Source: Campylobacter concisus (GTDB lineage: Bacteria; Campylobacterota; Campylobacteria; Campylobacterales; Campylobacteraceae). From it: a stretch of 64,000 nt of DNA. Both the position numbers and the translations under genes were made by a program. The stretch is from the NCBI RefSeq assembly GCF_003048875.2, contig NZ_CP049264.1, forward strand, positions 868,001 to 932,000. Direction: 5' to 3'. The notes under the pieces were generated by a model. The model made no database searches and had not been told where the DNA came from. It was given only the letters and a program-made list of their open reading frames with translations. This document shows positions 1,088 to 4,764 of this stretch, piece by piece. Position 1 is the stretch's first letter; every line of letters begins with the position of its first letter.

Positions 1088-1414
1088 TTACATGCCTTTT
1101 TTCATTTCGTCTTTCATGCCCATGTCGTCTTTTTTCATACCCATGTCATCTTTTTTCATTTCGTCTTTCATGCCCATGTCGTCTTTTTTCATACCCATGT
1201 CGTCTTTTTTCATTTCGTCTTTCATGCCCATGTCTTCTTTTTTAGCTTCGTGTTTTTTGACAGGATGTTTTTTAGACATATCATCTTTCATCATCTGCTC
1301 TTTCTTCATCATCTCATCTTTGCCCATCTTGTCCTTTTGCATCATTTCAGTAGCATTTGCAAGACCGCCAAACATAAACATAGCACCAAGTGCAACTAAG
1401 ATTAACTTTTTCAT
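1088..1414 (-). CDS. small exported MXKDX-repeat protein
   Basis: A 108-residue protein with a signal peptide (MKKLILVALGAMFMFGGLANA, cut predicted after ANA) followed by a highly charged, Met/Lys/Asp-rich region. The C-terminal half repeats MKKDDMGM and MKDEM blocks with an 18-residue period. This fits the known family of small exported proteins with pentapeptide MXKDX repeats (TIGR02953 type), whose role is unknown. Dense Met with Asp/Lys/His suggests metal binding or a surface or periplasmic buffer, which is inference only. It has a good ribosome site (AAAGGAG, 6 bases before ATG). It lies directly upstream of the response regulator and kinase genes, 6 bases from the regulator start, so all three may form one operon under the box at 1460-1477. 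Confidence 0.85.
   Translation of the reverse strand: MKKLILVALGAMFMFGGLANATEMMQKDKMGKDEMMKKEQMMKDDMSKKHPVKKHEAKKEDMGMKDEMKKDDMGMKKDDMGMKDEMKKDDMGMKKDDMGMKDEMKKGM
1101..1240. repeat. 54-bp in-frame tandem repeat inside the MXKDX gene
   Basis: Two full 54-base units (1101-1154, 1155-1208) and a partial third (from 1209) are almost identical; the only difference between the full units is one base (catc versus cgtc). The period is a multiple of three, so copy-number change would add or remove 18 residues without a frameshift. The near identity at DNA level shows recent expansion or homogenisation. Confidence 0.9.
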
Positions 1415-1459
1415 AAAGTCTCCTTTAAATTAAATTATGTTGCAATTGTAGTCACTTAG

Positions 1460-1477
1460 TGTGAAATAAGTGTGAAT
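1460..1477 (-). promoter_or_regulatory. DccR-like binding box upstream of the MXKDX gene
   Basis: Read on the minus strand this is A-TTCAC-ACTTAT-TTCAC-A, a perfect direct repeat with 11-base spacing, about one helical turn, as OmpR-type regulators use. It matches the WTTCAC-N6-TTCACW motif that I recall for the C. jejuni DccRS regulon. It ends 45 bases before the MXKDX start codon and sits about 20 bases upstream of a CATAATT -10-like element, so it would overlap the -35 region. Confidence 0.7.
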
Positions 1478-2477: not shown

Positions 2478-4238
2478 TTAAACCCTAGTATCAACCTTTT
2501 TGTAAAATTTATCTCTTTCATCTATCTTTTCTTTATTTTTTATATCGTTTTCAAGATAGCTGATATTATAAATTTCTCTTGCGGATATACTTTTGCCGCT
2601 ATTTAGGCTGATTAAAAATTTACTCTCAAATTTATTTGATATGTTGATGATAGCTATCGCTCCAGCATCTTTTAGGCTTGTGATCTTGCCGCTTTGCATG
2701 ACGCCGATGTCTTTGAAATTTAGGCTATTTAGCTGCTCATTATCCATCTTTTTTGCATCTAAATTTACACTAGTTTTTAGCTCGCTTGGCGTATTTAGCT
2801 TGCCAGTGTCATTGTAAAGCTCATTTACGTCTAGCTCTCTGCCGCTATCAAATTTTAGTCTTATCGTGCCATCTTGATTTAGCTTCATAGCTATGACGCT
2901 ATCGCTATCTCGCAGTGCAGTGGCGGCTATGGCTTCATTTGATGTAAAAGCCTTTTTTACTTTTTTTAAATTTGAGATGCTAAAATCAAGCCCAGTTGCT
3001 TGCTTAAATTCATTTTCCATTGCGATCATTTTGGCTGATTTTGTATCTTCAAGCTTTGATATGTAAGCGTCCGCATTTTCGTCAAATTTCTTTAAATTAG
3101 CGCTAAGATTTTCTATCGTCTTTTCATGCGCATCAAGCTCAGCGTTGTAGTCACTATAAAATTTCATAAAACTATCTTTTTGAAATTTTGTGTATGAGAA
3201 ATTTTCATCTTTTTTCTGCTCTTTGCTTGGCTCGACGATCGGGTTAAACTCGCTTAATCTTGCAGTGTCATCAAAGCCTATTTTTGTGTAAGCGAAATTT
3301 TTAAAAGAGCTATCCTTACCAAAGATATTATTGTGCCTTAGATCGACCCAGCCGTCATTTTGAGCATATTTTTTAAAGAAATTATTTATATCATTTTTGC
3401 CTATCTTTTCATATCTATTCTCAGCAGCAAACAAGGTATTTGGATCTGAGGCGTAGTAGGAGTGCCTGTGATCGATCTCTTTTGTATCTACGTAAAGATC
3501 GGGACTATTTGTGATTATTGCTTTATGGTTTAGCTCTTCTCTTGCTATTTGGTTGTGATTTATGACATTTGTGCTGATAAACTGCCTAAGATCAACTCTA
3601 GCCGTGACGTCACTTAAATTTGCTATTTTTTCATTTCCGTCTTTGTCGTATCCTCTTACTTTTAGCTTGTCAAAGAGCATATCTTTTTGATCTAGTGTGC
3701 CGTCATTATTGCTATCAAAGCTAAAAAGTGCGCTGTTGTTTTCTAGCTTTCCAATGCCTAGCTCATCATTATCGCCGTAAATATCTAAAAAGACTTCCAC
3801 TTCGCCATAATTTGTCTTTAGAGTGTTTGAGTAGGCGTAGTCGTTTAAATTTTTAAATTTTGTATTTTCTAAGTAGCCACTTTTTAAGACAGGTAGCATG
3901 GCGGCATCATCTGTGGCATTTATATTTTTAAAGTAGGCGTTTTTGCTAAAGCCATTAGAAAGTTTGTCTGAGTAAATTTTGTTGTTGCTATCTATTAAAT
4001 TTTGCGAGTAATCTTTTAAAATTTCTTCTGCTTTTTGTATTGCTAGATGTTTGTTGTATTCTTTGATATCAGCTTCAGTTATGTAGATGGTATCTGTTTT
4101 ATTTGCTTCATAAAGCTCGTTAAACTGGCTTAAATTTACTTTTGAGCTATTTTGATCGCCATGATTTGAAAATCTTTTAGAGAGATTTTGCAAATCATTT
4201 AAATTTATAAAATCATACTTTTGCGGTGCAACATTCAT
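2478..4238 (-). CDS. large orphan protein with an EF-hand-like loop
   Basis: A 586-residue hydrophilic protein without signal peptide or membrane segment; I do not recognise the family. A textbook EF-hand loop is present at DSNNDGTLDQKD (about residue 175), just after an acidic GDNDELGIGK stretch, so calcium binding is plausible. The middle contains two loosely similar blocks that begin with DDAAML and DDTARL and mention YA and F-K-N-L/F, hinting at an old internal duplication. A long coiled-coil-like helix follows (about 350-410). It starts MNVAPQKYDFINLNDL with a ribosome site AAAGGAT. It stands alone between the AEC gene and tRNA-Leu. Cytoplasmic or leaderless secretion are both possible. 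Confidence 0.7.
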   Translation of the reverse strand: MNVAPQKYDFINLNDLQNLSKRFSNHGDQNSSKVNLSQFNELYEANKTDTIYITEADIKEYNKHLAIQKAEEILKDYSQNLIDSNNKIYSDKLSNGFSKNAYFKNINATDDAAMLPVLKSGYLENTKFKNLNDYAYSNTLKTNYGEVEVFLDIYGDNDELGIGKLENNSALFSFDSNNDGTLDQKDMLFDKLKVRGYDKDGNEKIANLSDVTARVDLRQFISTNVINHNQIAREELNHKAIITNSPDLYVDTKEIDHRHSYYASDPNTLFAAENRYEKIGKNDINNFFKKYAQNDGWVDLRHNNIFGKDSSFKNFAYTKIGFDDTARLSEFNPIVEPSKEQKKDENFSYTKFQKDSFMKFYSDYNAELDAHEKTIENLSANLKKFDENADAYISKLEDTKSAKMIAMENEFKQATGLDFSISNLKKVKKAFTSNEAIAATALRDSDSVIAMKLNQDGTIRLKFDSGRELDVNELYNDTGKLNTPSELKTSVNLDAKKMDNEQLNSLNFKDIGVMQSGKITSLKDAGAIAIINISNKFESKFLISLNSGKSISAREIYNISYLENDIKNKEKIDERDKFYKKVDTRV

Positions 4239-4303
4239 CTAAAATCCTTTTAAAGATGTTGCAAATAGTATCGGCTAAATTTATAAAATGTTTAAGCTTA
4301 TGA

Positions 4304-4390
4304 TGGTGCCCGAGGTCGGACTCGAACCGACACAAGGTTGCCCTTATCAGATTTTGAGTCTGACGCGTCTACCAGTTTCACCACTCGGGC
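4304..4390 (-). tRNA. tRNA-Leu(CAA)
   Basis: The minus strand folds into an 87-base class II tRNA: acceptor GCCCGAG/CTCGGGC, anticodon loop CTCAAAA with anticodon CAA, a variable arm, T-loop GTTCGAGTCC and an encoded 3' CCA. It follows the HU gene terminator closely in the same direction. Confidence 0.95.
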
Positions 4391-4425
4391 TAAGTTAAGA
4401 TTGAAATTTTAGATTTGTGAGAAGA

Positions 4426-4450
4426 AAGAAAAAGGGGAGACTTGCTCCCC
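4426..4450 (-). terminator. intrinsic terminator after the HU gene
   Basis: On the minus strand GGGGAG-caagt-CTCCCC is followed by TTTTTC. It lies 12 bases past the HU stop codon and 36 bases ahead of tRNA-Leu. Confidence 0.8.
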
Positions 4451-4461
4451 GAAAAAGAAAA

Positions 4462-4764
4462 TTATTTCTTTTTACCTTTTTTAGCAGCACCAGCAGCAAC
4501 TGCTTCTTTAAGTTTTTTGCCAACTTTGAATTTGACTGCTTTGCTAGCAGGAACGTCGATTACTTTCTTAGTTCCAGGAACTCTAGCTTTCCTTGCAGCT
4601 CTGTCAGCAGTACCGAAAGTACCAAAGCCTATAAAGCTAATTGTATCACCTTTTTCAAGAACCGCTTGGATTGTCTCCAAAGTAGCATCAACAACTTTTA
4701 GAGTATCTTTTTTTGAAAGACCAGCCTTGTCGGCAACCGCTTGAATAAATTCAGCTTTTTTCAT
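4462..4764 (-). CDS. hup: HU/IHF-family nucleoid DNA-binding protein
   Basis: A 100-residue histone-like protein. It starts MKKAEFIQAVADKAGLSKKD, has the dimer core and the beta-arm region with GFGTF (about 46-50) and the RKARVPGT arm tip, and ends in a Lys/Ala-rich tail (AAAGAAKKGKKK) that adds non-specific DNA affinity. The ATG at 4764 was chosen because AAAAGGA lies just before it; a longer frame from 4794 adds ten residues not seen in the family. Single gene with its own terminator. HU bends and compacts DNA. Confidence 0.95.
   Translation of the reverse strand: MKKAEFIQAVADKAGLSKKDTLKVVDATLETIQAVLEKGDTISFIGFGTFGTADRAARKARVPGTKKVIDVPASKAVKFKVGKKLKEAVAAGAAKKGKKK

Follow-up and report, generated by a model that had tools for sequence, protein, structure and literature searches.

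Layout of the operon and its promoter

The window analyzed here, a stretch of 64,000 nucleotides of the Campylobacter concisus genome (contig NZ_CP049264.1, positions 868,001 to 932,000), carries at its left end a compact set of genes encoded on the minus strand. The first of these is the gene of an AEC-type (auxin efflux carrier type) transporter (2383–1478), which is followed by a gap of 63 bp (1415–1477), the gene of an exported MXKDX-repeat protein of 108 aa (1088–1414, with its ATG at 1414), that of an OmpR-type response regulator of 220 aa (416–1078), and the N-terminal part of a sensor histidine kinase gene (1–423). The remainder of the kinase gene lies beyond the window, so its sequence was completed from the genome. 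The regulator most likely starts at the ATG at 1078, which has AAAGG upstream and leaves 9 nt to the MXKDX gene; the distance of 6 bases given in the first-pass annotation applies only if translation begins at the TTG at 1081. The ATG of the kinase gene (423) and the regulator stop overlap by 8 nt. The small contig of the assembly gives matches to C. concisus plasmids only. In most related genomes, too, an AEC-family transporter gene lies directly upstream of the operon.

The gap holds both a box and a –10 element. The direct repeat TTCAC-N6-TTCAC, reportedly the DccR motif in the study of the DccRS regulon, is present on the minus strand at 1476–1461 with A/T flanks and zero mismatches (TTCAC-ACTTAT-TTCAC, i.e., TTCACACTTATTTCAC), as had been read at first. 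The true unit of the repeat is longer than in that reading, however: TTCACACT occurs twice at an 11-bp period, and the box is better written as TTCACACT-N3-TTCACACT. It lies 1 nt past the transporter stop codon and 61–62 bp ahead of the MXKDX ATG, while the –10 element TACAAT (1445–1450, minus strand) is located exactly 10 nt downstream of it.

A genome-wide search for the bare motif, proposed in the first-pass annotation, returns four sites in 2.03 Mb, one of which precedes the MXKDX gene. The other three fall within or next to unrelated housekeeping genes, or close to the end of a contig. The reversed control motif also occurs four times; thus, the motif by itself carries little weight. An exact match within 110 bp before the MXKDX gene has a probability of about 0.0016 (dinucleotide shuffles). 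The extended pattern is found without mismatch in this genome only in the MXKDX box, which suggests, but does not prove, that the regulon of this regulator comprises one operon. Ten extended boxes with one mismatch were considered and set aside, as none was MXKDX-like in promoter position before an obvious exported-protein gene. The box matters through its context, namely, the distance to the start codon, the –10 spacing, and the recurrence of box, spacing, and gene order in divergent Campylobacter.

Conservation of the box and operon

The MXKDX gene, the regulator, and the box are kept together in 27 of 27 concisus-type loci. The second half-site is variable within this group, being exact in 11 genomes and TTAAC in 16. 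The MXKDX gene also adjoins the regulator in all 14 more divergent loci. Among divergent genomes, whose regulators are 65–75% identical to the one described here, or 61% in a locus from another genus (L080), nearly all have a box that starts 59–62 bp ahead of the MXKDX gene (the survey leaves out L056, which ends at a contig edge). It reads TTCACACTTGCTTCAC in L061, TTCACGCTCGTTTCAC in L054, and TTCACACATACTTCAC in L080; the second half is TTTAC or TTTAT in L049, L050, L051, and L060, and in L052 the first half-site drifts as well (TTAACACTCACTTTAT). In an alignment of eight lineages, box columns carry a mean of 1.58 bits of information, versus 0.63 for the spacer. Thus, the loss of the box from relatives that keep the gene pair, raised at first as an argument against its role, is not what the relatives show: the box is kept with the pair, and its second half-site drifts.

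One divergent locus, L060 (G047:C4, approximately 2521–4597), has an intact MXKDX gene next to a regulator with an in-frame TAG and a kinase with a broken frame; either the system is decaying here or the sequence contains an error.

The box pattern was also sought in the C. jejuni group. Four DccR-bearing genomes of this group contain 23 matches, compared with 8 in controls, and 17 of the 23 precede genes of exported or membrane proteins, including PepSY-like proteins, a 184-aa membrane protein, MacA-like proteins, and a small exported protein. MacABC and Cj0200c have been reported in the DccRS regulon (PMC11365321). In both the MXKDX set and the DccR set, a TATAAT-like element fits best at offset 10 after the box, where the mean match is 4.5 of 6 positions; other offsets reach at most 3.1. 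Additional matches to the specific pattern in G001, G006, G013, and G046 were rejected, every one of them being within coding frames. A diverged box, TTAACGTATTTTTTAC, is located 68 bp before a macA gene adjoining the MXKDX locus in L051 (position 5031) and L055 (position 5156, reverse).

The regulator is a sister of DccR

Phylogenetic analysis places the MXKDX-linked regulators (17 rows) as a sister branch of DccR, with support of 97/89, and not within the jejuni-type DccR clade. The DccR rows were recognized by their conserved gene neighborhood, which contains groEL, hemerythrin, CprRS, and htrA. A regulator on a C. jejuni contig is 92% identical to a DccR row, with a CprRS-like pair a few genes away, and in C. 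jejuni CprRS corresponds to cj1227c-1226c and DccRS to cj1223c-1222c (PMC9449129). Regulators linked to DUF1104 proteins and the paralogues from the same genome fall outside the pairing. In the DNA-binding C-termini, EEPSELSLRxYIKNLR and RGxGY are common to the MXKDX and DccR branches, whereas the DUF1104 branch differs. The DccR-type assignment made in the first-pass annotation therefore stands, the nearest branch being DccR and no other family member. That annotation had further described an autoregulated module, which fits the conserved promoter architecture; both readings are supported at the level of sequence, on which the case for autoregulation is based.

The third branch consists of regulators about 50% identical that sit with DUF1104 exported proteins. 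Parallel operons of a DUF1104 exported protein, regulator, and kinase were found in L062–L075 and L100–L110. In many of them, TTAAC-N6-TTCAC lies close to the start of the operon, and these operons appear to form a second system, related to DccRS, within the family. In a locus from another genus (L104, 3396–4404), MXKDX-like and DUF1104-like genes both precede a regulator of the DUF1104 branch, a case in which MXKDX has become associated independently with regulators of this family.

Methionine and cysteine residues of the sensor kinase

The kinase is homologous to DccS over its full length (profile comparison over 386 columns, E = 1e-88, 35% identity), with a diverged periplasmic sensor part. 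Met50, Met54, Met58, Met116, and Cys76 are present in nine of nine kinases of the MXKDX branch, the other eight of which are 47–67% identical to the query, and in none of ten DccS proteins, where the aligned residues are R/H, I/L/T/V/S, N/K, varied, and Ala. A second Cys is present in the nine kinases at a less fixed position. DUF1104-type and paralogous kinases are without this set. The invariant periplasmic Met/Cys set, absent from DccS and the paralogues, is a new observation.

A structural model would place the Met triad (i, i+4, i+8) on the membrane-proximal helix, next to a small predicted PAS-like sheet. In fold searches, the whole kinase matched by its kinase core alone, and the sensor part gave weak PAS-like matches (best E = 0.03) that permit no ligand inference. 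Since the whole sensor helix is conserved, and not just its methionines, the Met/Cys residues are a lead rather than proof.

The MXKDX protein and methionine repair

The predicted mature part of the MXKDX protein has 86 aa, of which 25.6% are Met, 29% Lys, and 28% Asp or Glu, with no Cys and two His. It contains five MxM and five MxxxM spacings along with many acidic residues; MxxM was not found in it. Tandem repeats of 54 bp occupy the 3′ half of the gene (1096–1243, minus strand) and vary in number between genomes, and the protein ranges from 83 to 108 aa across the concisus-type group. The match to TIGR02953 (31.3 bits, E = 1.5e-7) is under the curated cut-off of 41 bits, which no genome in the phylum sample exceeds. 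A plasmid search with the protein gave no match. Outside Campylobacter, three weak matches in the phylum were set aside; of these, the one inspected corresponds to a His-rich repeat of the opposite strand.

The first-pass annotation regarded the role of MXKDX proteins as unknown, a view that no longer holds. The Brucella MXKDX protein BcrX is a reported homologue of the Azospira hypochlorite scavenger MrpX; HOCl induces the bcrXQP operon, which also includes MsrPQ, and this operon adds to the resistance of Brucella to HOCl (PMC8315932). Unlike in bcrXQP, Msr genes were not found beside the operon in this locus. The genome encodes an MsrA-MsrB fusion with a signal-like N-terminus (L283, 1390–2430), the only MsrA-domain protein found in it; an MsrP-type domain was not found. 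The presence of MsrAB without MsrP agrees with the C. concisus literature (PMC10653797). According to the same work, C. concisus BisA also reduces methionine sulfoxide, bisA mutants are hypochlorite-sensitive, and Met-rich proteins named there have 5–6% Met, a content far exceeded by that of the MXKDX protein.

Discussion

The system described here shares with DccRS of C. jejuni (Cj1223c-Cj1222c) a regulator of a sister clade (about 55% identity), a kinase homologous over its full length, a direct-repeat box at a 10-nt distance from the –10 element, and exported or membrane proteins as targets. It differs in that the MXKDX target is in the same operon, with one clear site rather than several, in that the sensor has the Met/Cys residues that DccS is without, and in that groEL, hemerythrin, and CprRS are not its neighbors. 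The hypochlorite-scavenging systems BcrS-BcrXQP (Brucella) and yedYZ-mrpX (Azospira) are similar in having a regulated small exported Met-rich protein of MXKDX type, a likeness drawn from their descriptions. Control in Brucella is by an ECF sigma/anti-sigma pair and not by a two-component system, and MsrPQ-type partner genes adjoin in Brucella and Azospira, whereas here the exported MsrAB is encoded elsewhere in the genome. The two-component sensor HprS of E. coli is reportedly triggered through oxidation of periplasmic methionines (PMC10296692). The likeness of HprSR to the present system would be functional; its regulator belongs to another branch, and its target, hiuH-msrPQ, serves repair and is not a Met-rich sink.

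We infer that the MXKDX product probably acts in the cell envelope by capturing oxidants or copper. The reading we favor, to which we assign a probability of about one half, is that of a DccRS-branch operon that responds to oxidants (or Cu(I)) by inducing a Met-rich sink, which exported MsrAB repairs. The components that the sequence itself supports are a regulator in the branch next to DccR, a promoter in which a DccR-type direct repeat spans the –35 region and the –10 element follows at a fixed distance, a first product predicted to be an exported Met/Lys/Asp repeat protein, and Met and Cys residues, missing in DccS, that are invariant in the periplasmic domain of the kinase. Given the repeat over the –35 region and the fixed –10 element, the operon would be activated by its own regulator. 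HOCl-type oxidation of the kinase Met/Cys residues (or Cu(I) binding) would turn the kinase on, the phosphorylated regulator would raise the level of the MXKDX protein, the methionines of this protein may serve as a sacrificial sink, and exported MsrAB and BisA (the latter published for C. concisus) would reduce methionine sulfoxide, closing the loop. The fuller version of this circuit, in which the kinase Met/Cys cluster reads the oxidant (or Cu(I)) load, the one clear target is the kinase's own operon with its sacrificial Met-rich protein, and recharge is by MsrAB and BisA but not MsrPQ, is put forward tentatively.

Several observations stand against the favored reading. In C. jejuni, DccRS reportedly responds to growth phase but not copper (PMC7118207), the TIGR02953 score is below its cut-off, and no Msr gene adjoins. 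Moreover, in L104 an MXKDX-like gene lies by a DUF1104-type regulator whose kinase is without most of the Met/Cys residues, and the low-complexity Met/Lys/Asp composition also fits metal binding. The same autoregulated operon could encode a protein that buffers Cu(I)/Ag(I) in the periplasm, with the kinase Met/Cys cluster as a copper site. The MxM and MxxxM spacings and acidic residues of the mature protein, the sensor triad with its invariant Cys, the binding of Cu(I) by the E. coli copper chaperone CusF via methionines, and the overlap of copper and methionine-repair responses in E. coli (PMC9302797) are in line with this. Nevertheless, we consider a copper buffer unlikely, given a mature protein without MxxM or Cys and with only two His, the copper-unresponsiveness reported for C. 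jejuni DccRS (PMC7118207), and, in the loci read, flanking genes among which a copper exporter or oxidase was not recognized.

Slightly more doubtful is a CpxP-like feedback accessory that binds the kinase periplasmic domain and holds the kinase off until titrated away. In CpxP-CpxRA and ZraP-ZraSR, a small periplasmic protein is under the control of its own two-component system. The low-complexity repeat protein described here has no sequence relation to CpxP or ZraP, and its composition would not be expected to give a stable fold. A small exported protein gene does precede the regulator in both the MXKDX and DUF1104 branches, even as the protein family changes, and the lone perfect box of the genome is the MXKDX gene's own; yet repeat number varies freely among genomes, unlike in a defined binding partner, and the DccR orthologues of the C. 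jejuni group are without such a neighbor gene. With respect to regulation, the copper-buffer and feedback explanations coincide with the favored reading; the function assigned to the MXKDX protein is the sole difference. That the box is a chance match or the site of another regulator, and the operon not autoregulated, is improbable: the bare motif is not enriched in the genome and the second half-site is degenerate in many relatives, but the position, the –10 spacing, and the extended consensus are found again in divergent genomes and agree with the promoters of DccR-bearing genomes.

Growth phase is the only signal so far defined for C. jejuni DccRS, and the sister branch ties the same box to a protein family of hypochlorite defense. 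The invariant sensor residues are specific targets for mutation, making the question of the DccRS signal directly testable. If the sink reading is true, C. concisus, which lives in the mouth and gut and encounters oxidants from neutrophils, would gain a candidate envelope antioxidant, and the MXKDX protein would be a candidate substrate of its repair enzymes MsrAB and BisA.
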